Source: an uncultured Eubacteriales bacterium
GTDB lineage: Bacteria > Bacillota > Clostridia > Peptostreptococcales > Anaerovoracaceae
Reading direction: 5' to 3'
Assembly (NCBI GenBank): GCA_902775345.1
Contig: CACYLW010000004.1
Span: 62,001-126,000 of the forward strand
Length of the DNA: 64,000 nucleotides
The stretch's first letter is position 1. Each line of letters starts with the position of its first letter. The position numbers and the translations under genes were made by a program. Below are positions 42,287-64,000 of this stretch, in pieces. The notes beneath the pieces are model-generated. The model was not told the origin of the DNA. It ran no database searches and saw only the letters and a list, made by a program, of their open reading frames with translations.

Positions 42287-42907
42287 GTGACTGAATCTGA
42301 AAGAATGGAAGCCGGACTGCTGTATGATCCGGGAGCTGATGAGATCCTGTCCGTACAGAGTCCTCTCGGAGAAAAACTCAGGGAGTTCAACGATCTCAAG
42401 CCGTCGCAGTACGAAGAGCAGCAGCGCCTCATGAGGGAGCTCTTCGCTGAATGCGGAGAGAACGTGTTCATCCAGAGACCGCTATACGCGAACTGGGGCG
42501 GCAGCCACGTGCACATGGGCTCCAACATATATGCCAACTTCAACCTGACGCTGGTCGATGACGGTCATATATACATAGGTGACTGGGTCAAGTTCGGACC
42601 TAATGTAACCATTGTGACAGCGGGACATCCGGTGCTTCCGGAATTAAGAAAAGACCCTGCGCTTCAGTTCAACAAGGATGTGCACATCGGTGAGTGCGTG
42701 TGGATTGGAGCCGGCGTGATCGTCCTGCCGGGAGTGACCATCGGAAAGAACAGCGTCATAGGCGCTGGAAGCATCGTAACGAAAGACATACCTGAAAATG
42801 TCGTTGCTGTCGGAAATCCGTGCAGGGTCATGAGACCGGTCGGCGAAAAGGACAGGGAGACTTTTTTCAGAAACGAGAAAATAGACTGGGAGGAACTCAA
42901 TGGCTAA
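42287..42907 (+). CDS. Maltose/galactoside-type O-acetyltransferase
   Basis: Left-handed beta-helix acetyltransferase (Maa/LacA/NodL type), 206 residues. The GTG start has GAGGCAG upstream, and the opening TESERMEAGLLYDP matches the family. The hexapeptide core includes GSHVHMGSNIYANFNLTLVDDGHIYIGDWVKFGP and IGAGVIVLPGVTIGKNSVIGAGSIVTKDIP, with catalytic His in VTAGHP. It probably acetylates a sugar. Its end overlaps the next gene by eight bases. Confidence 0.92.
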   Translation: MTESERMEAGLLYDPGADEILSVQSPLGEKLREFNDLKPSQYEEQQRLMRELFAECGENVFIQRPLYANWGGSHVHMGSNIYANFNLTLVDDGHIYIGDWVKFGPNVTIVTAGHPVLPELRKDPALQFNKDVHIGECVWIGAGVIVLPGVTIGKNSVIGAGSIVTKDIPENVVAVGNPCRVMRPVGEKDRETFFRNEKIDWEELNG

Positions 42908-43526
42908 GGTGATATTGATAAATGGCAGTCCGAGAGCTGAACAGTGTACGGCGACTGCACTCAACGAAATGATAAAGACCTTCAATGAAGAGGGTATCGA
43001 AACTGAACTTATCCATATAGGAAACAAGAGCATCCGGGGCTGCACGGCGTGCGGTTACTGCTCGACACATGACGGATGCGTGTTTAAAGACATCGTGGAT
43101 GAAGTGAATGCCAGGCTCGAGAAAGCGGACGGCCTCGTCGTCGGGAGCCCGGTATATTACAGCTCGCCGAACGGGACTCTCATATCGTTCCTTGACAGGC
43201 TGTTCTACAGCGCCCAGTACGACATGCACATGAAAGTCGGCGCTGCGGTAGTCAGCGCCAGACGCGGAGGAAACACAGCGTCATTCGATGTGCTCAACAA
43301 ATACTTCAGCATCAGCGGCATGCCGATCGCTACATCCACGTACTGGAACCAGGTGCATGGCTTCACGTCTGAAGACGTAAAAAAGGATGCCGAAGGTCTG
43401 CAGGTAATGAGAAATCTCGCACGCAATATGGCTTTCATGATAAAGGCCATCGCGGAAGCGAAAGAAAAATACGGACTGCCTGAAGTGGAACATGGCAGTT
43501 TCACCAGCTTCGCGGACGGCAAGTAA
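42900..43526 (+). CDS. Iron-sulfur flavoprotein (NADPH-dependent FMN reductase family)
   Basis: Flavodoxin-fold protein of 208 residues. The FMN phosphate loop is NGSPRAEQCTATAL (8-21), and a compact cysteine set C48-x2-C51-x2-C54-x5-C60 resembles the 4Fe-4S site of archaeal/clostridial iron-sulfur flavoproteins. GSPVYYSSPNG is the second flavin-contact loop. It likely shuttles electrons from reduced ferredoxin or NAD(P)H. It sits between the acetyltransferase and the CooT-like gene on one transcript. Confidence 0.88.
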   Translation: MAKVILINGSPRAEQCTATALNEMIKTFNEEGIETELIHIGNKSIRGCTACGYCSTHDGCVFKDIVDEVNARLEKADGLVVGSPVYYSSPNGTLISFLDRLFYSAQYDMHMKVGAAVVSARRGGNTASFDVLNKYFSISGMPIATSTYWNQVHGFTSEDVKKDAEGLQVMRNLARNMAFMIKAIAEAKEKYGLPEVEHGSFTSFADGK

Positions 43527-43541
43527 AAGGAGGAAACGGAT

Positions 43542-43727
43542 ATGTGTCTTTCAATGGTTTATAAGAATGAAGTGAACGATGCAAATCTGCTGGCAAAGAA
43601 TGTAGCAGATATCAAGGTAGACGGAGGAACGATCATCTTTACGGATCTGATGGGGATCCGCTACACGTTCGACGGGACACTGGAGAAGGTCGACCTGATG
43701 GATAACTACGTTATAGTCCGCGGATAG
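43542..43727 (+). CDS. CooT-like small metal-binding protein
   Basis: 61 residues, beginning Met-Cys (MCLSMVYKN). CooT proteins of carbon-monoxide dehydrogenase operons are ~65-residue beta proteins whose Cys2 binds Ni(II). This one keeps Cys2 and a predicted all-beta body (ADIKVDGGTIIFTDLMGIRYTFDGTLEKVDLMDNYVIV). An AAAGGAGG ribosome site lies 11 bases upstream. It sits between two Fe-S redox genes, and a CooC-family gene lies 20 kb downstream. Nickel binding is inferred from family, not shown. Confidence 0.72.
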   Translation: MCLSMVYKNEVNDANLLAKNVADIKVDGGTIIFTDLMGIRYTFDGTLEKVDLMDNYVIVRG

Positions 43728-43757
43728 ATAGTTGTGTATAGATAAAAAGGGGGAAAA

Positions 43758-44906: not shown

Positions 44907-44917
44907 CTGATACTTAT

Positions 44918-44944
44918 AAAGGCGTTTACAATGAACGCCTTTTA
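44918..44944 (+). terminator. Terminator after the Fe-S aldo/keto reductase gene
   Basis: Nine-bp stem (44918-44926 with 44934-44942); the T-tract is short, so efficiency is uncertain. It insulates the first dehydratase-like operon. Confidence 0.5.
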
Positions 44945-44978
44945 AGCTGCAAAAAAACAATATGCACTTTTTAAAGCC

Positions 44979-45008
44979 TTGCCATTAACCCGCTGAGGGG
45001 GTTAATAT
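44979..45008 (+). promoter_or_regulatory. Putative promoter with embedded palindromic operator, first dehydratase-like operon
   Basis: TTGCCA (44979-44984), 18 bp, TAATAT (45003-45008). Inside the spacer is ATTAACCC-N7-GGGTTAAT (44984-45006). The core AACCC-N7-GGGTT recurs at 58205-58221. The placement between -35 and -10 suits a repressor or MerR/CsoR-like regulator. Confidence 0.45.
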
Positions 45009-45094
45009 TTTATCAACAGGAAACTGACAGAGGTCTTTTAGTGCCTTTGCTGGTTGTGAGAGGGATTTTTTTAATAAGAAAGAGGAGAGATAAT

Positions 45095-46297
45095 ATGAAA
45101 GACCTCAAGCATCTTTTGTATTTTGAGAACCTCCTGCAGAATGCAAATAACGAACTGATAGAACAGGCTAAGAAGGACGGCAAAATCTGCGCGGCGTTTA
45201 CGTGCGAGAATATACCGGAGCCTCTGATGAACCTTGGCAACACGTTCTCAGTTCGTCTTTTTGCGCCTAATTCCGGCTCGCTCGACATAGCTACGTATTA
45301 TATGACGAGCTTTCTTTGCGAGACGAGCAGGGCGCTGCTGGAGAGAGCGATCGAAGGAGGCTTCAACTTCGCGGACTGCCTGATCGCTGCGGACGGCTGC
45401 ACCATGATGAACCGTGCTGCCGAAAACATGGAGCTGCTTCATACCATGGACGAGGGAAAGGATAAATTCTTCTATCAGTTCATGGAGATACCGATGAAGG
45501 CTACTGAGAATGGAGTCGCACTTCTGAAACTGCAGACGACTAACCACATACTCAGGCCGCTGCACGAGAATTACGGCATCGACATTTCTGAGGAAGCCAT
45601 GCTCAAGGCAGTTGAAGAGCACAATGAGGTCTGCAGGCTCATACAGGAGATCGGCGAATTCCGCAAGGAGGACGATCCGCGCATTACAGGCTATGAGTTC
45701 CACGTGCTCACGCTGGCAACATACCTTGCTCCGAAGTATCTGCTCATCGACAAGCTGAGAGAGACACTCGAGGAGATAAAAACCAGGGAGCCTGACGGCA
45801 GGAAGTGGCGTGCCCGCGTTCTGGTGGTCGGGTCGGAGATCGACGACATCGGCATGATAAAGCTGATCGAGGAATGCGGAACCTATGTATGCGCAGACAG
45901 ATACTGCTTCGGCTCATTCCCGGGCAGAATACCTATCGAGATCGATCCGGATTCGGAAGATGACGTTCTCACACAGATCTGCCGCCACTACACCATGATG
46001 AGCCAGTGCCCTCGTACGATGAACATGGAGAAGGTATACGGACGTAAAAAATACGTCAACGACCTCGCAAAGGAGTATAAGGCAGACGGCATCATCTATG
46101 AGCAGGTCAAGTTCTGCGACCCGTGGGCTTACGAGCGCATGCTGGGATCGCACATGCTGAGAGAGGATTACGGATTCCCGGTGCTCTCCGTAGACAGACC
46201 GTACAACATCAACGCCGGCGCAGGCCAGATGCGTACGCGTGTGCAGGCATTCATTGAAAGCATTGAGATAAAGAAGATCCAGGGAGGTGAGAAGTAA
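45095..46297 (+). CDS. 2-hydroxyacyl-CoA dehydratase / benzoyl-CoA reductase family subunit (HgdB/BcrC-like), copy 1
   Basis: 400 residues. The ATG follows AGAGGAGA; an upstream GTG extension was discarded. The family comprises Fe-S proteins that do hard one-electron reductions of CoA thioesters or small molecules. The three classic cluster cysteines are recognisable: Cys37 (FTCENIPEPL), Cys102 (ADGCTMM) and Cys341 (VKFCDPWAYE). Additional cysteines (32, 75, 95, 180, 261, 266, 271, 296, 305) could support a larger cluster. It overlaps the partner subunit by one base (TAATG). Substrate unknown; no ASKHA activator gene is adjacent. Confidence 0.85.
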   Translation: MKDLKHLLYFENLLQNANNELIEQAKKDGKICAAFTCENIPEPLMNLGNTFSVRLFAPNSGSLDIATYYMTSFLCETSRALLERAIEGGFNFADCLIAADGCTMMNRAAENMELLHTMDEGKDKFFYQFMEIPMKATENGVALLKLQTTNHILRPLHENYGIDISEEAMLKAVEEHNEVCRLIQEIGEFRKEDDPRITGYEFHVLTLATYLAPKYLLIDKLRETLEEIKTREPDGRKWRARVLVVGSEIDDIGMIKLIEECGTYVCADRYCFGSFPGRIPIEIDPDSEDDVLTQICRHYTMMSQCPRTMNMEKVYGRKKYVNDLAKEYKADGIIYEQVKFCDPWAYERMLGSHMLREDYGFPVLSVDRPYNINAGAGQMRTRVQAFIESIEIKKIQGGEK

Positions 46298-47901
46298 TGG
46301 CATTCAAGACAGTCAAAAAGATCACTAACCCTAAGAAGAAAAAAGGTGACCAGACGCTCGGCAAACTCTACCCGACCAACGGCAAGACAAAGGTCTTCGT
46401 CCGCCGTGAGTGGAGAGGCGTAAAGGACACGCTCTACGATTATTCCAGATGGCTCTACATCATGTCCATCCTCGCAAGGTTCATATCGAAGCCTCGCAAC
46501 ATCAAGGCGATGTTCCGTTACAGATGGATGGCAAACTATCTGGCAGTTCCATATATGATGGACAAGTTCACTCTCGGACTCAGGGATGAGCCTCTGCGCA
46601 TCACCCACACAGCCATGAACTTCGTCATCTATGACGTAGCCAAGACGATGGACAACATCTTCAAAGGCGACCGCCGTACCGGCAACAACAAGAAGTTCTC
46701 GGATACATGCGTACTGACAGACGAGAACGCGATGACAGCGTTCATGATGGGATTCAAGGATACGACAGCCATCCTCAGAGAGGTCCCGACCATGTTTGTC
46801 GCCAACCTCCTGACGCAGAATTCGACTACGCATTACCTCGATGTTGCTCAGGAATTCGGACTTCCGGGCGATGTCTGCCCGATGCCTGAGGCTGAGGCCG
46901 GCATTTCCATCGATGACGACTTTGCCGTACTCGGCTGCTGCGCAGTACAGGTCAACACCACATGCGACGGTTCGCTCATGGGTAACGGTGTCATCGCACA
47001 CAGACTCGAGCGTGAATACGGCATCCCTACGTTCCAGCTGACTGCTCCGCTCCGCCATAAGGAGGATGATGTTCAGGAATACGCTGCCAACGACATGAAG
47101 GAGGCTGTAAAGTTCATCGAAGAACACGCACATGAAAAATGGGACTGGAAGCGTTACTTCGAGAGCGCTGCCAGAGTCAACGACGCTACAAAGCACCGCG
47201 CATTCTGGCTTGACAACAACTCAACTGATTATCCGCAGTTTGTAGGTTCGGTATTCTCGCTCTACAACGATACCAACTACATGGGCAACTGCGGAAGATC
47301 GCCGCTCTTCCCTCCTAAAGACAAGAAGATCAGCAAGCTTGTCGAACAGGGATATAAGAAAAAGACCATGATCTGCCCTGAATACAGGCACAGATGTATC
47401 GTATGGGGAGTACAGCCTCAGTACAACATCCACATGCTGTACTGGATGATGCACTGCTGGGGCGTTGTGCCGCTGACAGACATGCTTTCAATGGTCAACA
47501 CCGACATGATCGCAGAAGAGGATACTCCTGAAAACAGGGAAAAAGCCTGGTTCGACATGGCATGGCTCAACGAGAACATGATCATGCGTAACCGTACTCA
47601 CGGCGGATACAAGGTGCTCGTCGACGAGCTCTGGGAGTTCTGCGAGATCATGAACGCTGACATGGTCATGATGTGGGAGCACATGAGCTGCAAGGCTCTT
47701 GACGGTCTCCACGGAATGTTCGAGGAGCAGGGCCGCGAGAGAGGCATCCACGTTGTTTGGGTATGCCACGACCTCTGCGATCCGAGAGTCTACACAAGAC
47801 AGGCGATCCGTGATGAGTTCAGCCAGTACATGCGTACAGTACTGCGCGAGGAACCGCTCGATCCGACTATTGAGCATATACCTGACGAGAATATGTGGTA
47901 G
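46297..47901 (+). CDS. 2-hydroxyacyl-CoA dehydratase family partner subunit, copy 1
   Basis: 534 residues, longer than the ~420-480 of HgdA/FldB. The N-terminal ~100 residues are basic then aromatic and unlike classic dehydratases. Candidate cluster cysteines are Cys194 (GDVCPMPEAEAG), Cys223 (NTTCDGS) and Cys465 (HMSCKALDG), all kept in the copy at 59660. Both also share the HREWRG/RREWRG opening and EEPLDP near the end. A GGGAGGTGAGAAGTA ribosome site overlaps the end of the first subunit. The pair should form a heterodimer. The operon ends at the terminator at 47948. Confidence 0.8.
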   Translation: MAFKTVKKITNPKKKKGDQTLGKLYPTNGKTKVFVRREWRGVKDTLYDYSRWLYIMSILARFISKPRNIKAMFRYRWMANYLAVPYMMDKFTLGLRDEPLRITHTAMNFVIYDVAKTMDNIFKGDRRTGNNKKFSDTCVLTDENAMTAFMMGFKDTTAILREVPTMFVANLLTQNSTTHYLDVAQEFGLPGDVCPMPEAEAGISIDDDFAVLGCCAVQVNTTCDGSLMGNGVIAHRLEREYGIPTFQLTAPLRHKEDDVQEYAANDMKEAVKFIEEHAHEKWDWKRYFESAARVNDATKHRAFWLDNNSTDYPQFVGSVFSLYNDTNYMGNCGRSPLFPPKDKKISKLVEQGYKKKTMICPEYRHRCIVWGVQPQYNIHMLYWMMHCWGVVPLTDMLSMVNTDMIAEEDTPENREKAWFDMAWLNENMIMRNRTHGGYKVLVDELWEFCEIMNADMVMMWEHMSCKALDGLHGMFEEQGRERGIHVVWVCHDLCDPRVYTRQAIRDEFSQYMRTVLREEPLDPTIEHIPDENMW

Positions 47902-47947
47902 TCCGGATATTTCATCATAAAAAGACTTTAAACGGCATTTTTGATCC

Positions 47948-50618: not shown

Positions 50619-50653
50619 GCCGGTGCCCTTAACACGAAGGGCGCCGGCTTTTT
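50619..50653 (+). terminator. Terminator after the duplicated-domain lipoprotein
   Basis: Stem of 12 bp with one G-T wobble (50619-50630 with 50637-50648) followed by five T. It overlaps the stop codon region of the convergent ligase gene. Confidence 0.8.
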
Positions 50654-52004
50654 ATTTATCTGTCTGTTCCTGAAGTTCGTAACGCTTAAGCTTGCCTATC
50701 GCTGAGCGCGGAAGAGCTTCAGCCCTTATGATAACGTCGCAGATCTGCTGTGAAAGCGGGAGGTCTTTGTTGTAATTACCGATCGTTTCGAGCAGTTTGC
50801 TGCGAAGCTCCCCTGCTTCTGCCGGATCGTCCGTGCATGAGCCGGCAACAAGTACAGCATGACCGTTCTTCATAGTCACACCGAGATCCGCAAGCCCGGT
50901 CTCGCGTGAGAGGTCGTCTTCGTACTGAGGACAGAATATCTTAGCTCCGTCAGGCATGATAAGTATGTCTTTCTTACGTCCTTTAAGGTGAAGCCTGTCC
51001 TTCTCATCGAAGCTTCCGAGGTCTCCGGTATAGAAACGGCCATTTTCAAACATCGGCTCCCTGCCCAGATATCCCAGCATCATGCATGGCGTGGCAACAG
51101 AGATCTCACCGTCTTCTTCAATGCGGATATCTGCTTCAGGGCATGGATACATGGCGTATGGCTCATCCAGATCCTGTGTGATCGCTATGCCGCTCGATGT
51201 TTCCGAAAGGCCGTAGCCGATATAGACCTGGATTCCCCTCTTCCTGAGATCGTCAACTATAGGCTGAGGACATGGAGCTCCCCCGATAAGTACTGTTCTG
51301 AGCCCCGGGTTCAGGGCGTCAGCTTTGAGCATGTCCGCGATCTGCGAAGGGACCGCCGGAATTATGTCAGGGTCGAAAAACAGCGCATCGCCGGTAAACT
51401 CATGAAGGCTCCTGCCCAGCGCCAAGGTTGCTCCGTAAGCGAGACCCCAGAGCATGGAACATACAAAACCGTATGCATGCGACAGCGTGAGCACTGAAAG
51501 GATCACGTCTCCCTCTCCGCAGGCCAGCATGCTCTGCCCGCTCCAGGCGCTTGCGCACAGCGACGTGGACGTGAGTCTGACGATCTTGGACCGGTCGGTG
51601 GTCCCGGATGTGAAGAAAAGAAGCTCTCCTTCACCCTTCTTTCCCCTGATGCGTCCCCGTTCATCACGCTGCGACTCGCGCACAAATCTCGCTTCCTCCG
51701 CAGCAGCGGCAGCAAGTTCGTTATATTCTTCCGGCATACGGGAATCCGCGATTATTATGTCGCATCCGGCTATCACGTGGGCGAAAATGTCCACAAGCGA
51801 CTCCGGATCCAGATCGTAACGGATCACCTCTACGGTGCTGCAGGCGGCTTTCACATGCAGCGTCTCGGAAGATATCATCTGTCCCAGTTCCTTATACGAG
51901 ATTTCCCTTACTTCTCCGTCTTTTGTTTCGTACCTGACGGCTGCGGCGTTGCGCTCTCTGAAGCCATCTACAAGGCTTTCAAACGATTCGTATCTTTTAT
52001 ACAT
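50652..52004 (-). CDS. AMP-forming acyl-CoA synthetase/ligase family protein
   Basis: ANL-superfamily adenylate-forming enzyme of 450 residues. P-loop FFTSGTTDRSK (near 130), IGYGLSETSSG (near 260), YTGDLG and the hinge/C-domain GRKKDILIMPDGAKI are present, ending with the PRSAIGKLKRYEL segment whose Lys completes catalysis. It could form an acyl-CoA for the nearby dehydratase-like enzymes, an inference from position. It is shorter at the N-terminus than most such ligases (~500-550). Transcribed alone from the right, with a TATAAT-like -10 (52047-52052 on the minus strand). Confidence 0.88.
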   Translation of the reverse strand: MYKRYESFESLVDGFRERNAAAVRYETKDGEVREISYKELGQMISSETLHVKAACSTVEVIRYDLDPESLVDIFAHVIAGCDIIIADSRMPEEYNELAAAAAEEARFVRESQRDERGRIRGKKGEGELLFFTSGTTDRSKIVRLTSTSLCASAWSGQSMLACGEGDVILSVLTLSHAYGFVCSMLWGLAYGATLALGRSLHEFTGDALFFDPDIIPAVPSQIADMLKADALNPGLRTVLIGGAPCPQPIVDDLRKRGIQVYIGYGLSETSSGIAITQDLDEPYAMYPCPEADIRIEEDGEISVATPCMMLGYLGREPMFENGRFYTGDLGSFDEKDRLHLKGRKKDILIMPDGAKIFCPQYEDDLSRETGLADLGVTMKNGHAVLVAGSCTDDPAEAGELRSKLLETIGNYNKDLPLSQQICDVIIRAEALPRSAIGKLKRYELQEQTDK

Positions 52005-52175: not shown

Positions 52176-53297
52176 TTATGCTCTTGCTCTTTCCATTGCT
52201 TCTTCGTAATCCTTTGTTCCAGCCCAAACATCGTTTGAATATGGGTTCTTGCCCATTGCGATGGAACGTTTGATGATCACTGCGATGCAGATGACGTTGG
52301 CAGCGATCGAGAGCATTGCGATAACGCCCTGTGCTGTCGGGTCAGCTGTGATACCCATGTCAGCGATGATCTGACCTGCCTGTGCAGTCTTGCCTGCGCC
52401 TGCATTGTAGAGAGTGATCGCTTTCTCATAAAGATCCATTGTAGTGATACCGAGCTCCGTAGCTCCGCCGTAAACTGAAGGGAGCGCAGCAGCAAATCTG
52501 CTGGAGAGCTGGAATGCAGGAACGACCTGAGCCCACATGCACCAGATGGCAAGAGTGTTTGCACGGTTCTGGATCCATGCACCCTTGTTCCACAGAGCAT
52601 TCGCGAAAGTAGGAGCGAGCAGAAGTGCAACGCCGCAGTACCACGAATGTGTAGGCAGGTTGAGATAAGTGTACTCGAAGTTCCAGATATCGTATGCAAC
52701 GATGAACCAGATAGTCATGTCAGGCCAGAGCATGTCGGACATGTTCTTGTCTTTCGATGTGAGCAGGTGAACGCATCCTGTCATGCAGAAGATGTTGATC
52801 ATTCCTGCAAGTGCGTTGAGCAGGTTCCACCAGCCGCCATAAATGAATACGCCTTCATTCGATGCCCACCATGCGCCGCTGAAGTCTCCTGTGATGGAGA
52901 ATGCAGCAAGTGCGGACTCCATGTCGGATACGTTTGCGATCATGATGTTGGCTGCAACGATGAACCAAGGCCACCATTTGAACCATGCTTTCTTACCGAG
53001 GCCCCACTCGTACTTGATCATCATGAATCCTACACAGCCGATGTCAGCAGCATAGAGCTTGAAGTAGTGGAACCAGCCGTCCATGAATGCGACTGTCGGG
53101 TTTTCCGGTCCGCCGAACATTCCGACATGCGCAAGAATGAAATAGACCGTGAGAATAGCCGGGATGATAACGAATATGACCATACCACCTGCTTTGGTCT
53201 TTCTGCCGATCTCGTTCATGACGATCAGTCCGCAGAATACGAGCACCCAGCCAATGATCTGCATCATTGCGTGATTGCTGTAAAGCTGAAATAACAT
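52176..53297 (-). CDS. Polytopic membrane protein, resembles DUF5692
   Basis: 373 residues with about eight to nine hydrophobic segments rich in Trp (for example WWPWFIVAANIMIANVSDME and YGGWWNLLNALAGM). From memory it resembles the DUF5692 family; no function is established. Acidic/polar loops (NVSDMESALAAF, WPDMTIWFIVAYDIWNFEYTY) sit at membrane edges, as in some transporters or membrane redox subunits. Divergent from the flavoprotein gene at 53488, with back-to-back promoters in a 190-bp spacer, suggesting shared control. Good AGGAGG ribosome site. Confidence 0.7.
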   Translation of the reverse strand: MLFQLYSNHAMMQIIGWVLVFCGLIVMNEIGRKTKAGGMVIFVIIPAILTVYFILAHVGMFGGPENPTVAFMDGWFHYFKLYAADIGCVGFMMIKYEWGLGKKAWFKWWPWFIVAANIMIANVSDMESALAAFSITGDFSGAWWASNEGVFIYGGWWNLLNALAGMINIFCMTGCVHLLTSKDKNMSDMLWPDMTIWFIVAYDIWNFEYTYLNLPTHSWYCGVALLLAPTFANALWNKGAWIQNRANTLAIWCMWAQVVPAFQLSSRFAAALPSVYGGATELGITTMDLYEKAITLYNAGAGKTAQAGQIIADMGITADPTAQGVIAMLSIAANVICIAVIIKRSIAMGKNPYSNDVWAGTKDYEEAMERARA

Positions 53298-53487: not shown

Positions 53488-55026
53488 ATGAAGTTTTATA
53501 AAGACCATTATGATGTCGTGATCATCGGAGGAGCTCTTGCAGGGCTCTCAGCTGCCCTTCAGTTACAGCAGAAAGGGATCAACGACATCCTTATCCTGGA
53601 GAAGCACAATCTCCCGGGCGGTCTGGCGACCAGTTACGTCCGTAACGGAATAGAGATAGAGGCGACTCTCCATGAGATGATGAGCATAGGTTCCAAAGAG
53701 GACAGACTCAAGGTCGGCGCGTTCTTCGATGAGTGCGGTGTTGACATCGACTGGCTCAAGGTGCCTGAAGCGTACAGATTCGTCGAGCCCGGGAAGGGCA
53801 TCGATATAACGCTGCATCCGGGCTTCGAAAGAATGGCGGACGAGATCGATGAGCAGTATCCGGGATGGGGACCAAAAGTACTCGAATTCATGCAGCTCTG
53901 CAACAGGGTGTACGATTCGATGAACACCCTTTCGGTTACGCCGATGAGCAAGCCGGCGATGCTCATGAAGCATCCGGACTTTGTAAAGACGGCAGGCTAC
54001 ACGGCTGTTGAGGTCATCGACACATTCGGATTTCCGCAGGACATCATCGACATACTTACACCGTACTGGATCTACGTCGGTAACCCGATGAGCACCCTGC
54101 CCTTCACTATCTATGCTTTCCTGATGGCGGATTACTTCCGCGGAGGCAGCTATGTACCTAAGAAGTACTCGCATGAGATGAGCATGAAGCTCCAGGCGAA
54201 GGCTGAGGAGAACGGCGCTCAGGTGGAATTCTGCCAGGAGGTCGAGAAGATCCTTGTGAAGGACGGCAAGGTCACCGGCGTGCGCACGAAGCGGGGCGAT
54301 GAGATCAGTTGCGATTATGTCATAAGCGCTGCGTACCCAAACAAGGTGTACACACAGATGATAGAGCCTCTTTCGGAGGTCCCTGCCGGAGCCATCAGGA
54401 TGGTCAACGGCCGCAGGCTCTCGGTCACGACAGCATCGGTCATGATGGTGCTTGACGATACACCGGAGAACCTCGGAATCAGTGATTACAATATTTTCTC
54501 GGCCGGTGAGACCATGGATACAGACAAGATCTGGGAACAGGGAAAGACCACCGGACCATACAGGTATCTGACATCGATCTGCCTCGATCTGGCAAACCCG
54601 GGCGCTACGCCTGAGGGCATGTGCCAGTTCTCGATCACCAATCTGCCTCTCGTACAGGGCTTCCTCGATCTTAAGGAAGAGGACTACTACGACTTCAAGC
54701 GCAGAATGGCGAAGCAGATGATCGATGAATACGAAAGAGTCAGCGGGATCAACATCCATGACCATATAGTCGAGATCGAAGTGTCGACACCTGTCACCGT
54801 TGCCCACTATGTAGGAGCGTGGAAGGGCAGCATTTACGGTTACTCGCACAGCATCGATGACCACGCGGTGGCAAGGCTCCAGATGAAAGAAGAAGATCAC
54901 TTCATTGAAGGTCTTGAGTTCGCGGGAGCCCATGCCATCAGCGGAAACGGCATGGGTCCGGCCGTCACGAACGGCCGCGCCGCCGCCAAGGCTGTGATAG
55001 ACGACGTTGCAAAGAAGAAAGCATAG
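53488..55026 (+). CDS. CrtI/phytoene-desaturase-like NAD(P)/FAD oxidoreductase
   Basis: 512 residues. The N-terminal Rossmann segment VVIIGGALAGLSAALQLQQKG (middle Gly replaced by Ala) and ILEKHNLPGGLATSY bind FAD, and the C-terminal GLEFAGAHAISGNGMGPAVTNGRAAAKAV closes the FAD site, as in carotenoid desaturase/isomerase-like amine-oxidase-fold enzymes. No other carotenoid genes are present, so a pigment role is unlikely. It forms an operon with the 2Fe-2S reductase 15 bases on, a plausible electron partner. Substrate unknown. Confidence 0.85.
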   Translation: MKFYKDHYDVVIIGGALAGLSAALQLQQKGINDILILEKHNLPGGLATSYVRNGIEIEATLHEMMSIGSKEDRLKVGAFFDECGVDIDWLKVPEAYRFVEPGKGIDITLHPGFERMADEIDEQYPGWGPKVLEFMQLCNRVYDSMNTLSVTPMSKPAMLMKHPDFVKTAGYTAVEVIDTFGFPQDIIDILTPYWIYVGNPMSTLPFTIYAFLMADYFRGGSYVPKKYSHEMSMKLQAKAEENGAQVEFCQEVEKILVKDGKVTGVRTKRGDEISCDYVISAAYPNKVYTQMIEPLSEVPAGAIRMVNGRRLSVTTASVMMVLDDTPENLGISDYNIFSAGETMDTDKIWEQGKTTGPYRYLTSICLDLANPGATPEGMCQFSITNLPLVQGFLDLKEEDYYDFKRRMAKQMIDEYERVSGINIHDHIVEIEVSTPVTVAHYVGAWKGSIYGYSHSIDDHAVARLQMKEEDHFIEGLEFAGAHAISGNGMGPAVTNGRAAAKAVIDDVAKKKA

Positions 55027-55041: not shown

Positions 55042-56223
55042 ATGAAAGTAAAAGGTTTCTTAAAAGATGTCGGCGGCGCCTCCCGCGTCACCAAAATGCG
55101 CAGGGAGCTGATCGCTAAAGGCTCCCCTGTTCCGGATCCAAAGGATCCTATCCGCGAGCTGGCTGACCTGCTCCATCCGGGCAAGCAGCAGTTCACGGTC
55201 ACGGAGATCCGTGAAGCATCACCAACCTCGACTACATACAGGTTTTCGCCTGTGAACGGGCATGTGCCGGTATTCCAGAGCGGTCAGTACGCAAACTTCT
55301 ATCTGACGGTCGGCGGCAGCGTGCTCACCCGCGCGTACTCGATCTCGTCGGCTCCTTATGAAGCAAGGCTTCCTGAGCCGTTCTTCGAGGTGACGATCAG
55401 ACATAACGTACACTACCTGGTTCCGGACTGGTTCCTTGGGAACGTAAAGGTGGGCACTGAGATCACAGCTGCCCTCCCGTTCGGACAGTTCCACTATGAG
55501 CCGCTGCGCGATTCAGACCATATTGTCGGCATTGCCGGCGGATCGGGCATAACACCGTTCGCATCGATGGCAAAGGAGATCGCTCACGGCAAACTCGATA
55601 TCGATCTTACGGTCATCTACGGTTCTGTAAAGCACACGGACATAGTATGCGGCGATGAGCTGAAGGCCGCGGCCGGCGCAGCTCCTGACAGGATCCATCT
55701 TGTGCACGTGATGTCCGATGACGACGAGTGGGACGGCGAGAAGGGCTTCATCACAGAGGAGATCATAAGAAAGTATTCTCCGGAAGGAGCTTCGTACTTC
55801 TTCTGCGGACCTCCGGCGATGTTCTTCCTGATCGATAAGATCATGAAGGAGATGGGTGTTCCTCTGAAGAGGTTCAGGCACGACGCTGCAGCCCAGCCGG
55901 ATGTAAAGATGATCCCGGGATTCCCGATGGATCAGGTCGGCAGGGAATATAAGATCACTGTCAGGCGCGGCATTCATGAAGACGTCATCCCTGCTGCTGC
56001 GGACGAACCGGTGGCGGTCGCGCTTGAGAGAGCTGCGATCCCTGTCGACACCCACTGCAGAGGCGGCGAATGCGGATACTGCCGCACACAGCTGCTCGAG
56101 GGAGATATCTTCGTATCACCGCTCAACGACGGCAGAAGAGCAATGGACAAGGAACTCGGCTGGTTCCATGCCTGTTCCGCTTACCCTACGTCTGATCTGA
56201 AGATAAAGATTCCTATTATCTAG
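55042..56223 (+). CDS. FAD/NAD(P) ferredoxin-type reductase with C-terminal 2Fe-2S domain
   Basis: 393 residues. A ~50-residue basic N-terminal lead, then an FNR module with flavin motif RAYSISSAP, nucleotide motif GIAGGSGITPF and CGPPAM, then a plant-type 2Fe-2S ferredoxin domain with Cys339, Cys344, Cys347 and Cys378. This arrangement passes electrons from NAD(P)H via FAD to the 2Fe-2S centre. It is cotranscribed with the CrtI-like flavoprotein (AAAGGAGG ribosome site) and could feed that enzyme or the dehydratase-like proteins. Confidence 0.9.
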   Translation: MKVKGFLKDVGGASRVTKMRRELIAKGSPVPDPKDPIRELADLLHPGKQQFTVTEIREASPTSTTYRFSPVNGHVPVFQSGQYANFYLTVGGSVLTRAYSISSAPYEARLPEPFFEVTIRHNVHYLVPDWFLGNVKVGTEITAALPFGQFHYEPLRDSDHIVGIAGGSGITPFASMAKEIAHGKLDIDLTVIYGSVKHTDIVCGDELKAAAGAAPDRIHLVHVMSDDDEWDGEKGFITEEIIRKYSPEGASYFFCGPPAMFFLIDKIMKEMGVPLKRFRHDAAAQPDVKMIPGFPMDQVGREYKITVRRGIHEDVIPAAADEPVAVALERAAIPVDTHCRGGECGYCRTQLLEGDIFVSPLNDGRRAMDKELGWFHACSAYPTSDLKIKIPII

Positions 56224-57737: not shown

Positions 57738-58097
57738 TTATGCATTTTTTATCAATGAGAGTGCCTGCTCGATGAGATCGTTGCTTTCGCCAAGCTTGTC
57801 GACTGCGTCGTGGATCAGGTCGCCTGCAACATCATCGAAACAGTGCGCGAGATCGTGCAGCTCCTCGGCGTGGTGCCTGTTGTGATCGAGCATGTAATTC
57901 AGGAGAGCAAGAGCTTCCTCAGGTGAGGATGCCGCGGCATGCGAGTGCGTATGAGCGTGCGTGTGCGTGGTGCCGTCAGCATGTGTATGAGTGTGAGTGT
58001 GACCGCAGTGCTCGTGCGAATGAGTATGCTCGTGGTCGTGTTCGTGGACCTCGTGTTCATGGCCTGCGGCAGTGTTATTATTGATATCGGTGCACAT
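57738..58097 (-). CDS. Histidine-rich metal-binding protein
   Basis: 119 residues with 24 His, 18 of them in the first ~53, mostly in alternating HxH patterns (HEHDHEHTHSHEH, HTHTHTH). Begins Met-Cys; further Cys at 31 and about 85. Residues 58-119 form a predicted helical hairpin with acidic residues (LDHNRHHAEELHDLAHCFDDVAGDLIHDAVDKL), unlike a plain storage tail. The layout recalls nickel-storage or delivery proteins (CooJ, HypB N-terminus, SlyD/Hpn tails), but no close family was recognised; zinc or cobalt are alternatives. GGAGG lies six bases before the ATG. Confidence 0.72.
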   Translation of the reverse strand: MCTDINNNTAAGHEHEVHEHDHEHTHSHEHCGHTHTHTHADGTTHTHAHTHSHAAASSPEEALALLNYMLDHNRHHAEELHDLAHCFDDVAGDLIHDAVDKLGESNDLIEQALSLIKNA

Positions 58098-58329: not shown

Positions 58330-58467
58330 AGAATCATCAATATTATTGTAGAAAAAAGTCTGTTCCGTGCATGCGGAAAACGCGCTTTCGTGCATAAAAG
58401 CAGAGCGGAGAGACGGTTTTCTATGACAGTTTTTTACATCTGAGAGGGAGAGGTAAGGTGACACACA

Positions 58468-59658
58468 ATGCGTGACTTAAAGCATCTGATCTACTTTGAG
58501 GACCTGCTGCAGGAAGCCAACAACGAGCTCGTGCGCAAGGGCAAAGAAGACGGCAATCTGTGCCTCGGCTACACTTGCTACTTCATGCCTGAAGTCCTCC
58601 TCGATCTGCCTGGCTGCTTTGCAGTAAGACTGAGAGCGCCTAGATGCACATCGCCGGACATGGCTTCTTACTACATGTCAGGCCGTACATGCCACTATGG
58701 CAGATCACTTCTCGAGAGAGCTCTGGAGGGCGGATTCAACTTCATCGACGCCCAGCTCGCTACAGAGACCTGCACGGTAACATGCAGATTCCAGGAGCAT
58801 CTCGATTACATGGACGACGTTATCAACAACGCAACGTTCAAGACTTCATTCACAGATGTTCCGTTCAAGAAGAACGCGAACAGCATCGACCACTACAGGA
58901 AGCAGCTGAAGATCAAAGTGCTCGATTTCCTTGCTGAAGAGTACGGAGTCGACACATCTGACGAAGCTATCCTGAAAGCGATCAAGATCAACAACGAGGT
59001 AAACGACATCATCACAGAGATCGGAAACTTCCGCAAGCTCGATAACCCAACGATCACAGGTTACGAGTTCAGTGTCATCACACTGGTATCGATGGTTTGC
59101 CCTAAGTATCTCATCGTTGACAAGCTGAGAGAGACTCTCGAAGAGCTCAAAACAAGAGAGCCTGACGACAAGCCTAATTACAAGATCAAGGTCCTGCTCG
59201 CAGGTTCCGAGAACGACGATCCTGACTTCGTCAAGCTGATCGAAGGCTGCGGAGCACTCGTTGTAGCCGACAGACACTGCTACGGCTCGCTCGAGGCCAG
59301 ACAGCACATCGACATCAAGGAGGGAGAAGATCCTCTGACAGCTGTCGCCAGACATTACCTGCTGACAAGCCAGTGCGCGAGATTCATGGAGCAGCAGGAG
59401 ATGAGACACCGCAAGAAGGTGCTCGCCGATTATGCCAAGGAATACAAGGCAGACGGTATCATCGTGGAATCCAACAAGTTCTGCGAATACTGGAGCTTTG
59501 AGAGAATGATCGACACGATCGTTCTGCCAAGAGACTTCGGATACCCGGTATGCTCCATCGAGAAGGAGTACATCAATACGGCATCCGGCCAGCTCAGAAC
59601 GAGATTCCAGGCGTTCGTTGAGAGCGTAGAGCTCAAGAAGATCCAGGAGGTCAAGTAA
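58468..59658 (+). CDS. 2-hydroxyacyl-CoA dehydratase / benzoyl-CoA reductase family subunit (HgdB/BcrC-like), copy 2
   Basis: 396 residues, clearly paralogous to the protein at 45095: same opening (MRDLKHLIYFEDLLQEANNEL against MKDLKHLLYFENLLQNANNEL) and same ending (SVELKKIQ). Cluster cysteines fall at identical positions: Cys37 (YTCYFMPEVL), Cys102 (TCTVTC) and Cys339 (NKFCEYWSFE). Some surrounding cysteines differ, so the two copies may hold different cluster environments or substrates. A long ribosome site (GGTAAGGTGACACACA) precedes the ATG. The partner subunit starts one base after its stop. Confidence 0.85.
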   Translation: MRDLKHLIYFEDLLQEANNELVRKGKEDGNLCLGYTCYFMPEVLLDLPGCFAVRLRAPRCTSPDMASYYMSGRTCHYGRSLLERALEGGFNFIDAQLATETCTVTCRFQEHLDYMDDVINNATFKTSFTDVPFKKNANSIDHYRKQLKIKVLDFLAEEYGVDTSDEAILKAIKINNEVNDIITEIGNFRKLDNPTITGYEFSVITLVSMVCPKYLIVDKLRETLEELKTREPDDKPNYKIKVLLAGSENDDPDFVKLIEGCGALVVADRHCYGSLEARQHIDIKEGEDPLTAVARHYLLTSQCARFMEQQEMRHRKKVLADYAKEYKADGIIVESNKFCEYWSFERMIDTIVLPRDFGYPVCSIEKEYINTASGQLRTRFQAFVESVELKKIQEVK

Positions 59659-59659
59659 G

Positions 59660-61297
59660 ATGAAAAAACCTGATTTGAAAAAACTCAAGGAAGTCGACTT
59701 CAAGAAGGCTGCCAGGGATTTCGTCTATGGCAAGCCTCACGGAGAAAGAAGACTCGGAGACCTGTATATCCCGAAGACAGGTCTGTATAAACACAGAGAG
59801 TGGCGCGGTATCAAGGATACCATGTACTACTTCAACAACATCTGGCTGTACAACTACGGAATGATCGTACGCGATATCATGGTTTACGGCGGCGGCCCTA
59901 AAGGCCTGATCCAGTTCCTCAAGGGAACATGGAGATACAGATGGATGGGTCAGACATACCTGACCGTAATGCACTGGTTCGACAGATGCCTTGAAGGTAT
60001 GAGAGGTGAAACACTCGCCGCATCTGCATGGCACTTCAGAGGAATCGTAAGCGCATGCCTGTACCAGATCACCGGATTCTTCAACAGAGACCTCAACATC
60101 GGCGGAGATCCGGCTCTCAGAGCTAAGACGATCGGTACTGACGAAACAGTATGGGGCGGAGTCATCTATCCGTACATGGATCAGGGCGGCTATTACCTGC
60201 CGACACAGATGATCCCGTACTTTGTAACATGCCACTGCAACAACCACACAGTACTCAACTACATCGATGCTGTACAGGCTTACGGACTTCCGGGCGACCC
60301 TTGCCCGATGTGCCAGGCCGAAGCAGGAATCTATATCGAAGACGATGTTCCTGATGCATATGTCGCGATGGTTACGACAAACGAGGCCTGCGACAGCTCG
60401 GTAGGAACCTCCGTCATTCAGGACTGGATGATGAACAAGCCTCTCTTCGCGATGCCGCAGGTAATGCAGTTCGACGATGATTCCGTTCTCGAAAACTGCG
60501 CTAAGGAAATCGAGATGGCCTGGAGGTTCATGGAAGAGCAGACCGGACTCGAGTTCCACTGGGAAGAGCTCAAGAAGCACATCGAGCTGCAGAACAAGCA
60601 GAACCAGTTCGAGAGAGAAAAATGGGACGTAGCTGCAAACACTCACAGCTATCCTATCAACGGTGTAGCTCAGGCTCTGTACAGGATCTTCTACTCGCAG
60701 TACGGTGAGAGACCGTTCTGGCATGATGTTGACAGACGTGTCAGAAAGATCATGGAGAAGTGCGTGACTGAGGACATCAACACATTCCCTATGACAAGAC
60801 ACAGAGTCATCGCATGGTCATGCGCTCCGCTTTACTACTCCGCATGGTGCACATGGGCTTACAACTGCTGGGGCCTCAACACCATCATCAACATGGACTC
60901 GCTGATGTTCGACCTTGATATCCGCACAGACACTTACGAGAACTGCCTGCTGGATATCGCGAAATATCATGAGTGGGCTCCGATGAGAAGAATGGCTGTA
61001 GGCGGACTGCAGCACATCTTTGAGCTCTGGGAGAACATGGAAAAGTTCAACTGCGACATGGTCATGATGTACGACCAGCTGCAGTGCAAGGGCATGCAGG
61101 GTGTAGTCGGACTCTTCGAAGACGAGTTCAGAGCCCGCAACATCCACGCTATCTGGATGCCTCACGCTCTGCCTGACAAGAGAACAGTTCCTAGGTCACA
61201 GATCAGACAGATCATCAATGACTACATGTTCACAGTAATGGGCGAAGAACCGCTCGATCCGTCACTGCTTGACTTTGACGATATCGACAGCTGGTAG
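59660..61297 (+). CDS. 2-hydroxyacyl-CoA dehydratase family partner subunit, copy 2
   Basis: 545 residues, paralogue of the protein at 46297. Shared marks are KHREWRGIKDTMY, RYRWM, AYGLPGDPCPMCQAEAG, ACDSS, LQCKGMQG and EEPLDPS. The matching cysteines are Cys215, Cys244 and Cys476; the last lies exactly 70 residues from the end in both copies. It has an extra CPMC pair and a CHC (191-193) not seen in copy 1. Hence copy 2 may bind an additional or altered cluster. It is followed 14 bases on by a small membrane-protein gene. Confidence 0.8.
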   Translation: MKKPDLKKLKEVDFKKAARDFVYGKPHGERRLGDLYIPKTGLYKHREWRGIKDTMYYFNNIWLYNYGMIVRDIMVYGGGPKGLIQFLKGTWRYRWMGQTYLTVMHWFDRCLEGMRGETLAASAWHFRGIVSACLYQITGFFNRDLNIGGDPALRAKTIGTDETVWGGVIYPYMDQGGYYLPTQMIPYFVTCHCNNHTVLNYIDAVQAYGLPGDPCPMCQAEAGIYIEDDVPDAYVAMVTTNEACDSSVGTSVIQDWMMNKPLFAMPQVMQFDDDSVLENCAKEIEMAWRFMEEQTGLEFHWEELKKHIELQNKQNQFEREKWDVAANTHSYPINGVAQALYRIFYSQYGERPFWHDVDRRVRKIMEKCVTEDINTFPMTRHRVIAWSCAPLYYSAWCTWAYNCWGLNTIINMDSLMFDLDIRTDTYENCLLDIAKYHEWAPMRRMAVGGLQHIFELWENMEKFNCDMVMMYDQLQCKGMQGVVGLFEDEFRARNIHAIWMPHALPDKRTVPRSQIRQIINDYMFTVMGEEPLDPSLLDFDDIDSW

Positions 61298-61311
61298 AAA
61301 GGAGGCCGGTG

Positions 61312-61551
61312 ATGAAGAAGGCTAAAAAGAAAAAGAATAAAGCCGCAAGATTCGTAAAGAAGACGCTCGGCATCGCGGCTCTTGCATATGCCGGACTGTT
61401 CTGCGTATTCTACTACGATCTCGACGGAAAGCTTCTCTATTACGTTGTTGAGCCGTTCATGAAGAACCACTTCGACAACATGGAGAGAAGAGATCCTCAT
61501 ACAGTACCGTATGAGCAGATCGACAGCGAATATATGGCACAAAACAATTAA
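61312..61551 (+). CDS. Small single-pass membrane protein downstream of dehydratase-like pair 2
   Basis: 79 residues (ATG; a GTG one codon earlier is equally placed after AAAGGAGG). A very basic N-terminus (KKAKKKKNKAARFVKK) precedes one hydrophobic segment (about 18-36, LGIAALAYAGLFCVFYY), and the rest is polar, ending acidic. Topology is probably N-in. No family recognised. The tight spacing behind the dehydratase-like pair suggests it anchors or assists that enzyme; copy 1 has no equivalent downstream. Confidence 0.65.
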   Translation: MKKAKKKKNKAARFVKKTLGIAALAYAGLFCVFYYDLDGKLLYYVVEPFMKNHFDNMERRDPHTVPYEQIDSEYMAQNN

Positions 61552-61563
61552 TTATAACAATTA

Positions 61564-61727
61564 CGGCCGCAGCTACCCCCGGACATATTCCGTCCGGAGT
61601 CTGAGTGCTCATAAGCGTGCGATAGCTGGTATAGGCTTAAGGGCCGAAGCTCTTAAAGCATGCGAAAGACAGTAGCTGCGGCATAGTCCGCACCTTTCCG
61701 GGCGAAATATGTCCGGGCGCGCGGCCG
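61564..61727 (+). ncRNA. Structured RNA element upstream of htpG, family unknown
   Basis: 164 nt closed by a perfect 7-bp stem (61564-61570 with 61721-61727) and a near-perfect 20-bp long-range stem (61578-61597 with 61698-61717; one wobble, one mismatch). Inside are a stem 61615-61620/61658-61663, an 8-bp hairpin 61637-61644/61649-61656 with CGAA loop, and a hairpin 61677-61681/61688-61692. An alternative perfect 11-bp pairing (61566-61576 with 61672-61682) is mutually exclusive with the outer stem. It ends 33 bases before the htpG ATG. It could be a cis-regulator or a free small RNA. Confidence 0.55.
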
Positions 61728-61759
61728 GTAAAATAAGAAAAAAGGAAGTTATTACTAAT

Positions 61760-63619
61760 ATGAAAAAGAAGTTCAAAGCCGAATCCCAGCGTCTGCTGGA
61801 CATGATGATAAACTCGATCTATACGCACAAGGAGATCTTCCTGCGTGAGATCATTTCGAACGCGTCGGATGCCATCGACAAGATGTGCTACCTTGCTCTG
61901 ACTGATCAGTCGGTTGGTGAGAGCCGGAGCGATTACGAGATCATCATCACTCTCGACAAGGAGAACCGCACGCTTACGGTCAGTGACAACGGGATCGGCA
62001 TGGACGAGCAGGAGCTCGAAAAGAACCTCGGCACCATCGCGTTCTCGGGAAGCAGCAAGTTCAGCGAGCAGCTCGAGAAGGATTCGAAGGAGGCCAAGAC
62101 TACCACTGCGGACCACACCTCCGAAGTGGATATCATAGGACAGTTCGGCGTAGGTTTTTACTCCGCGTTCATGGTTTCCGACAAGGTCGAGGTGGTCAGC
62201 AAGCACTACGGTTCAGATAAGGCCTACAAATGGGTCTCCGAAGGAGCCGGCGGTTACAGCATCGAAGAGGCGGAAAGAGACGGCCACGGAACTGATGTCA
62301 TAATGCACATCAGGCAGGACGGCGAAGAAGCGGACGAATTCAGCCAGTACATGAGGGAATACCCTATCTACAAGCTGGTCAAGAAGTACTCCGACTACAT
62401 CCGCTTCCCTATCAAGATGCTGATGCCGCACCCGCAGGTCAAGGAAGGTTCGGATCCCGAGAACCCTGAGTACGAGGAAATCTGGGAATATGAAGTATTC
62501 AACTCCATGGTGCCTCTCTGGCAGCGCAAGAAGTCAGAGGTCACCAAGGAAGAGTACGATGCTTTCTACAAGGCCACTTTCCAGGACGATACCCCTCCTC
62601 TTGAGACGCTCACAGTCTCGGTTGAGGGCCTGGTGAGCTACAATGCCCTGATGTTCATCCCTGAGCTGGTACCTAACAAGTACTACACGGATGACTATAC
62701 AGGCGGTCTGCAGCTTTACAGCTCGGGCGTACTCATCATGGACAAGTGCAAGGAACTCCTGCCGGATTATTTCAACTTTGTCAGAGGCGTTGTCGACTCC
62801 CCTGACCTGTCGCTCAACATCTCGAGAGAGATGCTGCAGCACGACAGGCAGCTGAAACTGATCTCGAACAATCTCGAAAAGAAGATCAGGTCAAAGCTTG
62901 AGGAGATGCGCGACAAAAACAGAGAAGAGTACGAGAAGTTCTACAAGAGCTTCGGACGCCAGCTCAAGCTCTGCGCGCTCGACGACTACGGCAAATACAA
63001 GGAGCAGCTGCAGTACGTAAGCCGCATGAAGGAAGACCAGGAATACATCTACTACGCAACGGGCGACAGCTTCGAGGCGGTAGACAAGATGCCGCAGACT
63101 GAAGTGCTGAAGGACAGAGGAATAGAGATCCTGTACTTCACGGACAGCACGGACGGATTCATCCCTGACATGTTCCGCGAATACAAAGGAAAGAAGTACA
63201 TGTCCGTCATCGACGGCGACTTCGATCTCGGCGACGGCAAGGATGAAGAGAAGATGAACAAGGCGTTCAAGGACACCTTCGACTTCGTCAAGGAGACACT
63301 GGGTGACAGAGTGGATGTCGTAAAGGCGACAACCAAACTGAAGACCCATCCTGTCTGTCTCTCAAGCGGGGACGGGATCACCTTCGAGATGGAGAAGTAC
63401 TTCACCGCCGTAAACCCTGATCTGGGAATGAAGGCAAAGCGCATACTCGAGCTCAACGTAGATCATGACGCGTTCCTGGCGCTCGACAGAGCAAGGATCG
63501 ACGATCCTGAGAGAGCGAAGAAAATGTGCGAAGTGCTGCTCAACCAGGCGCTGCTGATCGCGGGCCTGCCTGTCCAGGATCCAAGCGCGTACACTGATAT
63601 TATCTGCTCACTGTTCTGA
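61760..63619 (+). CDS. htpG: Hsp90 chaperone HtpG
   Basis: 619 residues, normal size. The ATG of MKKKFKAESQRLLDMM follows AAGGAAG; a longer in-frame start at 61709 would begin inside the structured element and adds no conserved sequence. GHKL ATPase motifs: EIISNASDAIDKM, DNGIGMDEQEL, GQFGVGFYSAFMV. It lies between the structured RNA and the CooC-family gene, a position that hints at a client-protein link with metalloenzyme maturation, though this is speculative. Confidence 0.96.
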   Translation: MKKKFKAESQRLLDMMINSIYTHKEIFLREIISNASDAIDKMCYLALTDQSVGESRSDYEIIITLDKENRTLTVSDNGIGMDEQELEKNLGTIAFSGSSKFSEQLEKDSKEAKTTTADHTSEVDIIGQFGVGFYSAFMVSDKVEVVSKHYGSDKAYKWVSEGAGGYSIEEAERDGHGTDVIMHIRQDGEEADEFSQYMREYPIYKLVKKYSDYIRFPIKMLMPHPQVKEGSDPENPEYEEIWEYEVFNSMVPLWQRKKSEVTKEEYDAFYKATFQDDTPPLETLTVSVEGLVSYNALMFIPELVPNKYYTDDYTGGLQLYSSGVLIMDKCKELLPDYFNFVRGVVDSPDLSLNISREMLQHDRQLKLISNNLEKKIRSKLEEMRDKNREEYEKFYKSFGRQLKLCALDDYGKYKEQLQYVSRMKEDQEYIYYATGDSFEAVDKMPQTEVLKDRGIEILYFTDSTDGFIPDMFREYKGKKYMSVIDGDFDLGDGKDEEKMNKAFKDTFDFVKETLGDRVDVVKATTKLKTHPVCLSSGDGITFEMEKYFTAVNPDLGMKAKRILELNVDHDAFLALDRARIDDPERAKKMCEVLLNQALLIAGLPVQDPSAYTDIICSLF

Positions 63620-63635
63620 CAAAGGGGCAAACAAA

Positions 63636-64000
63636 ATGGAAGAAACCAGAGATACTAAAATTTTAACAGTTGCCGGCAAGGGCGGCGTCGGAAAGACTTC
63701 GATCAGTTCCGCGATGGTCAGGATCCTCACTGAGGAATATCCTGACGCGAGGATACTCGCGATCGATGCCGACCCTGCCATCGGTCTCACGACAGCGCTC
63801 GGCGTTGAGCCGACTGACACTCTCGACGGCATCCGCAAGAAGATCGTCGGAAGCGTTGAAGAAGGCCGCCCGAAAGAAGCCATTGAGATGCTCAACGAGG
63901 CAAGGTTCCGTATTTTCGACACCATGCTCGAAGAGCAGAAGTTCAGCTTCCTCGCGATCGGAAGGCCTGAGGCTGCCGGCTGCTACTGCAAGGTGAATGC
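63636..64000 (+). CDS. cooC: CooC-family nickel-insertion ATPase (3' end outside window)
   Basis: The first 121 codons of an open frame running off the right edge. It opens METHIONINE-EETRDTKILTV, then the deviant Walker A GKGGVGKTS (about 14-23), DADPAIGLT, and GRPEAAGCYCKVN, the CooC-specific segment whose Cys-x-Cys binds nickel at the dimer interface. CooC proteins help load Ni into carbon-monoxide dehydrogenase. The ribosome site is AAAGGGGC. A CODH or other client may lie just beyond the window, which I cannot see. Confidence 0.85.
   Translation, partial: MEETRDTKILTVAGKGGVGKTSISSAMVRILTEEYPDARILAIDADPAIGLTTALGVEPTDTLDGIRKKIVGSVEEGRPKEAIEMLNEARFRIFDTMLEEQKFSFLAIGRPEAAGCYCKVN

Follow-up and report, generated by a model that had tools for sequence, protein, structure and literature searches.

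The window analysed here, a stretch of 64,000 nucleotides (positions 62001-126000 of contig C4) from an uncultured Anaerovoracaceae bacterium, carries two gene pairs of the 2-hydroxyacyl-CoA dehydratase/benzoyl-CoA reductase family (PF06050) together with nickel-type helper genes, and its edge cuts an operon inside a gene for a CooC-type ATPase. A third pair, an ASKHA activator and a gene resembling CdhC of acetyl-CoA synthase (ACS) then follow in one gene run. We consider it probable that the region and 6 kb past the edge encode a low-potential reductase that is driven by ATP and belongs to the class I benzoyl-CoA reductase/double-cubane family, equipped with a dedicated metal-maturation set of the carbon monoxide dehydrogenase (CODH) type. 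The host genome has 2.25 Mb in 26 contigs and is 90.5% complete. Its nearest named relatives include six metagenome-assembled genomes (MAGs) from goat and sheep gut labelled Mogibacterium sp., a genus belonging to Anaerovoracaceae, and their pair 3 large subunits are 95-99% identical to that of the host (one is cut short).

Pair 1 (small subunit 45095-46297, large subunit 46297-47901, both + strand) and pair 2 (58468-59658 and 59660-61297, + strand) had been recognised in a preliminary description made from the letters of the window, and all four genes match PF06050 above its cut-off of 28.4 bits, with 280 and 84 bits for pair 1 and 287 and 96.7 bits for pair 2. The large subunits had rightly been called longer than the classic ones, having 534 and 545 amino acids (aa; 621 in pair 3) against 408 in HadB and 447 in BzdO. 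The CooC-type gene has its 5' part in the window (63636-64000, + strand) and runs on to C4:126403. It is followed on the same strand by the small (C4:126488-127684) and large (C4:127688-129553) subunits of pair 3, the ASKHA activator (C4:129722-130513) and the CdhC-like gene (C4:130828-131568). A fourth pair is located at C3:89 kb of the host, and no activator, CooC or CdhC-like gene was found in the 12 kb examined there.

The activator matches PF01869 with 188 bits (cut-off 31.5) and TIGR00241 with 211.6 bits (cut-off 125.4), and its cluster cysteines C128 and C167 are present in 52 of 52 aligned rows. In the 12 relatives listed it is 88-98% identical to the host's, and of the six carriers in the host's own family, the host being one, five have an activator with 79% identity or more; G268 (79% complete, about 310 contigs) has the pairs and gave no activator match at 1e-30. 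The preliminary description had found no activator in the 64 kb, called the pairs activator-less and supposed a different electron-delivery route. The window does lack a PF01869 match, but a search of the whole genome located the activator, which starts 3,722 bp outside the window within the gene run that the edge cuts, stands directly behind pair 3 and is syntenic in 49/49 testable related loci. By the refuting condition given in that description, this part of it fails. The activator-less claim is thus an effect of the window edge; for pair 3 such electron delivery is rejected, and the position of the activator speaks against a different route. Pairs 1, 2 and 4 may use the same activator, as shared ancestry and co-occurrence suggest. 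Within the window's clade a single activator gene stands behind the pair, and two different ASKHA donor subunits, a feature of Bzd/Bcr systems, were not found there. Locus L057 has a pair 2 with an activator-like gene of its own (16617 and 17657), besides the activator behind pair 3. A 1511-aa frame at G000:C7:84798-86507 contains two ASKHA domains, and we take it to resemble fused plasmalogen-forming enzymes.

In BzdNO, the double cubane is bound by BzdN Cys36/73/100/263/293/327 and the catalytic [4Fe-4S] cluster by BzdO Cys95/128/380 (PMC11971306). We aligned the small subunits in 27 rows, including BzdN, three double-cubane cluster proteins (DCCPs), two HadC and MbdN, and all six ligand positions are Cys in 24 of them, namely 20/20 of the window's clade (the ligand columns of the BzdN/DCCP-like pair 1 subunit reading CCCCCC), BzdN and the three DCCPs. 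Both HadC sequences carry Pro and Ala in place of two of these Cys and so keep four of six, and MbdN, likewise named a class I reductase and aligned on weak similarity, is without three of the six. A double cubane, which had been suggested earlier, is predicted from these cysteines, and the conserved Cys37 and Cys102 pointed out at that time are two of the six. The large subunits (BzdO-like in pair 1) have three [4Fe-4S] cysteines, which in 18/18 rows of the group, five remote ones included, align with HadB C84/C117/C346, which we take to be the cluster ligands of HadB; BzdO lies outside this alignment. One of the three is the conserved Cys about 70 residues from the C-terminal end that had drawn attention before. 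In pair 3 the predicted ligands are Cys37/75/102/269/301/337 of the small and Cys287/316/552 of the large subunit. When the large subunits were compared as a profile with the family alignment led by small subunits, the probability was 97.6% and those cysteines were in register. The N-terminal region of the large subunits (about 190 residues) gave no Pfam or NCBIfam match and only chance-like hits in a PDB sequence search. The small subunits reached 127-135 bits with their best NCBIfam model, that for DCCP (NF040772, cut-off 350), and 68-82 bits with the HadC model (cut-off 700), while the Bzd/Bcr equivalogs TIGR03190, TIGR02263 and TIGR02260 were not reached (best 97 bits against 453.8). Cys478 and His578 of the pair 3 large subunit were considered as a possible nickel site; they are invariant in the window's clade only and not in the remote rows.

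The small subunits, including those of remote pairs, group in a single clade (support 94/95, slightly short of the mark of the tool), which leaves out HadC, DCCP, MbdN and BzdN; the deeper forks are weak (68/11). The large subunits of the window's pairs group with that of the remote pair G356B (97/93), apart from HadB and DCCP. As had been surmised, the window's pairs do not nest in a characterised dehydratase clade in either tree, with deep placement unsure because long branches are flagged in each of the two runs. In the small-subunit tree, pair 2 is monophyletic across families and so is pair 3, which makes the duplication older than the spread.

A scan with one genome per species gave at least 561 stretches encoding relatives of the large subunit, of which the best 80 were kept. 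MAGs from rumen and gut account for much of these 80 loci, under labels such as Mogibacterium, Oscillospiraceae, Solobacterium and Erysipelotrichaceae, and synteny was counted in those with enough contig. The small subunit lies upstream of the large in 72/72 testable loci, CooC precedes in 65/67, the activator lies downstream in 49/49 and the CdhC-like gene follows in 36/38. CooC is absent in L087 and L091 and the CdhC-like gene in L037 and L100, with no N stretch at those places. Of the 20 loci whose flanks are wide on either side, 16 also contain pair 2, at differing places and in either orientation, and an 80-aa protein (61309-61551, + strand) adjoins the pair 2 large subunit in 31/31 loci holding it (among L021-L100). 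HtpG (Hsp90; 61709-63619, + strand), a possible assembly chaperone, lies between pair 2 and cooC in the host and is found somewhere in the locus, not always at this place, in 14 of those 16 loci. The distribution of the module is patchy: at 1e-20, no more than 2 of 199 genomes sampled across the phylum gave a large subunit, and in the own family 6 of 119 did, host included. Between the host and the Solobacterium MAG of locus L062, identities are 92% for the activator, 80% and 75% for the small and large subunits of pair 3, 69% and 72% for pair 2, 70% for CooC, 46% for the CdhC-like protein and 41% for HtpG, a pattern that suggests transfer of most of the module.

The nickel-type genes had been named as neighbours of the pairs, and their linkage proved genuine and tighter than the window alone could reveal, since CooC, CooT, the His-rich protein and the ACS-derived gene are kept near pairs in relatives. 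The CooC-type protein has CooC (3kje) as its nearest solved structure (3.5e-17), with its CYC motif in register, and CxC is kept in 70/70 rows having letters there. The CooT-like small protein (43542-43727, + strand; PF10133 57.5 bits, cut-off 27) has a Met-Cys start, and CooT begins with MCLS in the 12 listed of the 18 loci holding it; these 18 were found among 96 loci scanned, many of which end early, so that a missing CooT there says little. The gene for the His-rich protein (57738-58097, - strand; no Pfam match), which has a conserved C-terminal region, adjoins CooT in 17 of the 18, the exception being the host; its product may be CooJ-like in role, and homology to CooJ is not claimed. In L184 (G289), activator, CdhC-like, His-rich, CooT, small- and large-subunit genes form one run. 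By eye, the C-terminal part of His-rich proteins at L080:16295-16636 and L189:15761-16261, one of them in frame with CooT, resembles CsoR/RcnR-type repressors, which would fit nickel regulation.

The CdhC-like protein of about 245 aa has the ACS fold, comprising the middle domain and the first three cubane cysteines of the A-cluster, and ends after the third. Since it has no C-terminal domain bearing the CGC nickel ligands, an A-cluster in this protein is rejected. No full ACS was found in the host, where the only PF03598 match is this gene itself. Matches to Prismane/CODH and NiFe hydrogenase were also absent from the host, urease, lactate racemase and other nickel enzymes not having been searched for, and CODH over cut-off was found in 0 of 6 own-family carriers including the host; the view of the Coo genes as CODH relics was given up on this ground.

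For a remote comparison, the CdhC-like profile was run against 97 genomes from a second class within the phylum. The 18 matches consist of six short forms (159-306 bits, frames of 240-277 aa) and 12 weak, ACS-type ones (42-46 bits, frames of 428-747 aa), and the corresponding numbers for 398 genomes over the phylum are two short forms (host and G160) and 19 of ACS type (42-48 bits). At the six short-form loci of the second class, an ASKHA gene precedes and CooC follows in 6/6, and two ASKHA genes in a row are seen in five, the sixth (L180) being cut within the ASKHA gene by the contig start. A complete pair is present in three, a partial large subunit in a fourth and a contig end in two. Two remote sets of genomes preserve the linkage of CooC and the CdhC-like gene. 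G356 has a second pair after CooC, with an activator resembling the host's (334 bits). Two acyl-CoA-dehydrogenase-like genes upstream of the module in G356 and G347 hint at CoA-ester substrates and are too thin a basis for naming one.

Gene content, synteny, ligand cysteines, clade and the ACS fold of the CdhC-like protein stand on sequence or model, and a working order is proposed as follows. A ferredoxin-type donor would reduce the [4Fe-4S] cluster of the ASKHA activator dimer, and ATP hydrolysis would drive the electron to the putative [8Fe-9S] double cubane of the small subunit, which in turn would feed the three-Cys [4Fe-4S] site of the large subunit, the presumed place of substrate reduction. 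Several paralogous pairs probably share one activator. CooC, CooT and the His-rich protein may fill or reshape a metal site in a protein of the module itself, nickel being the most likely metal, and the CdhC-like protein could be an [Fe-S] partner or scaffold. We put forward only tentatively, as a possibility with distinctly less than even chances, that this is a nickel-containing ATP-driven reductase and the first member of the benzoyl-CoA reductase/double-cubane superfamily dependent on a Coo set. The pair would then carry a nickel-iron site, or would send electrons to the ACS-derived protein, which would then act as a working or storage centre, and one of the pairs may be an assembly scaffold in the way that NifEN is for NifDK.

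Several points weigh against a reductase with its own metal-maturation set. Nickel and the cluster types are predictions from sequence, the host genome is 90.5% complete, and the nickel enzymes sought in it were CODH, ACS and NiFe hydrogenase. CooC and the CdhC-like gene are perhaps not strictly required, being missing from 2/67 and 2/38 loci. The host's CooT and His-rich genes lie 14 kb apart, and the His-rich match is partly of low complexity. Among the remote large subunits only one of five (G356B) joins the window's clade, while G160, G347, G356A and G083 stand elsewhere on weak forks (44/78), nearer to HadB. CODH over cut-off is present in five of the six carriers of the remote class, so that CooC could serve CODH also in these. 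In addition, the 80 loci, the best of at least 561, were picked by a query headed by pair 3 and hence are skewed to it.

The strongest competing explanation, to which we give roughly one chance in a handful, is that CooC is an iron-sulfur maturase, a NifH-like ATPase that builds or reshapes the double cubane of an all-iron reductase, with CooT and the His-rich protein only buffering metal. It would account for the complete all-iron ligand set of the module, for the absence of any other Cys or His invariant across the window's clade and all five remote rows past the three cluster cysteines of the large subunit, and for the matches of the CooC-type protein to MinD/ParA/NifH-group models. Yet BzdNO was made in Escherichia coli with a plasmid said to encode BzdNO, CooC and maturation being unmentioned in that text (PMC11971306), and the host's own DCCP-like and HadBC-like loci, of which those on C18 and C1 have activators of their own, show no CooC in the 8-10 kb examined; therefore the fold needs no CooC as a rule. 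The nickel-type nature of the CooT and His-rich genes and the constant CxC of CooC also disagree with it.

It is improbable that the pairs are ordinary (R)-2-hydroxyacyl-CoA dehydratase paralogues of the HadBC/FldBC type sharing an activator, with the Coo-type genes as chance neighbours or serving another enzyme. The building blocks (PF06050 and PF01869) are the same, the host possesses a genuine HadBC-like locus (that on C1, which also has a CoA-transferase), and the weak attraction of some remote large subunits to HadB and the restriction of the nickel-enzyme search to the enzymes named above leave it some room. We disfavour it on account of the HadC score, the six small-subunit Cys in all pairs here against four in HadC, and both trees, which part the window's pairs from HadBC (with long branches and weak deep support); the remote CooC and CdhC-like linkage is a further objection. 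Hardly any weight is left for pairs working without ASKHA protein on electrons from flavoproteins, since the flavoprotein genes between pairs 1 and 2, the activator-free window, the fourth pair and G268 are outweighed by the activator 3.7 kb past the edge, conserved in relatives and already refuting this for pair 3, and by the extra activator in L057.

The other neighbours named in the preliminary description all exist as well. They are an FMN-reductase-like Fe-S flavoprotein (42900-43526, + strand; PF03358 96.5 bits, cut-off 24; Cys motif by eye), which is a possible redox partner, an AMP ligase (50652-52004) and, both loosely linked, a CrtI/amine-oxidase-like flavoprotein (53488-55026, + strand; PF01593 68 bits) and an FAD/NAD and 2Fe-2S reductase (55042-56223, + strand; PF00175, PF00111). 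Homologues of the latter two lie directly behind a dehydratase-like pair in L187 (G289:C7:32000-46000, at 5156-10950), a possible substrate hint that is too thin to name one. A DUF5692 protein (52176-53297, 416 bits) adjoins the same two genes in the window; DUF5692 neighbours homologues of the isoprene reductase IsrA (co-occurrence 0.4), which themselves stand beside nickel chaperones (PMC10134865). At 40069-42252, a 727-aa frame resembles, by eye, a DUF1385-type membrane protein fused with a PrmC-type methyltransferase. The host has a second DCCP-like gene at C3:271 kb. At L020:2323-4785 (G000:C3) a DCCP-like gene adjoins a URO-D/MtaA-like protein, and DCCP genes are drawn in a methyltransferase-related setting in a figure legend of PMC10418091.

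Double-cubane proteins, whose natural task is unclear, and benzoyl-CoA reductases are described as very strong biological reductants (PMC11971306). Since Coo-type helpers occur in the host and CODH-type nickel enzymes were not found there, the gene set suggests a strong reductant that is so far undescribed and perhaps depends on nickel. It would be a further kind of reductase, patchily distributed yet found in hundreds of relatives (for the 80 loci, chiefly MAGs of rumen and gut origin) and tied to nickel-enzyme helpers and a fragment of ACS in bacteria without detectable CODH. It offers a testable case for a new CooC/CooT target and may account for a low-potential step of rumen metabolism that has gone unrecognised. 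In the open-licence full text of PMC, we found no report of an ASKHA/double-cubane reductase with this CooC, CooT, His-rich and ACS-fragment gene set.

Among known systems, BzdNOPQ of Aromatoleum shares with the module a heterodimer with [8Fe-9S] small and [4Fe-4S] large subunits, as judged from the ligand cysteines, an ASKHA ATPase donor and, in five of the six remote loci, two ASKHA genes in a row. The module differs from it in staying below every Bzd/Bcr equivalog cut-off, in a large subunit 87-174 aa longer than BzdO, in the single ASKHA gene of the window's clade, in its CooC, CooT, His-rich and CdhC-like partners, and in that no aromatic-degradation genes were recognised among the genes annotated here. 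It probably works like a class I benzoyl-CoA reductase while being a non-member by score, by partner set and, with weak deep support, by clade. DCCP (reductase DCCP-R) is the best model for the small subunits and has all six Cys, whereas the pairs here are unequal, with a large subunit having the three cluster Cys only, and form a separate clade. HadBC/HadI, the (R)-2-hydroxyisocaproyl-CoA dehydratase, resembles the module in family, in an activator with cluster Cys and in the three-Cys site of HadB, and is set apart by HadC, which is without two of the six Cys, and by a long branch. Unlike acetyl-CoA synthase (AcsB/CdhC), the CdhC-like protein is short and has no CGC domain. A likeness to the MCR activation complex was also considered; that complex is described with an ABC-type ATPase and [8Fe-9S-C] clusters (PMC12176620). 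The roles of CooC, CooT and CooJ in nickel insertion into CODH are taken from PMC6006190, and the set of Rhodospirillum rubrum is matched here by CooC with CxC, CooT with Cys2 and a His-rich protein, clustered in relatives. It differs in that neither the host nor five other own-family carriers gave a CODH match, and what the Coo-type set serves here is apparently the reductase module. The surprise lies in how stably CooC, CooT, a His-rich protein and an ACS fragment are joined to an ASKHA/double-cubane reductase.

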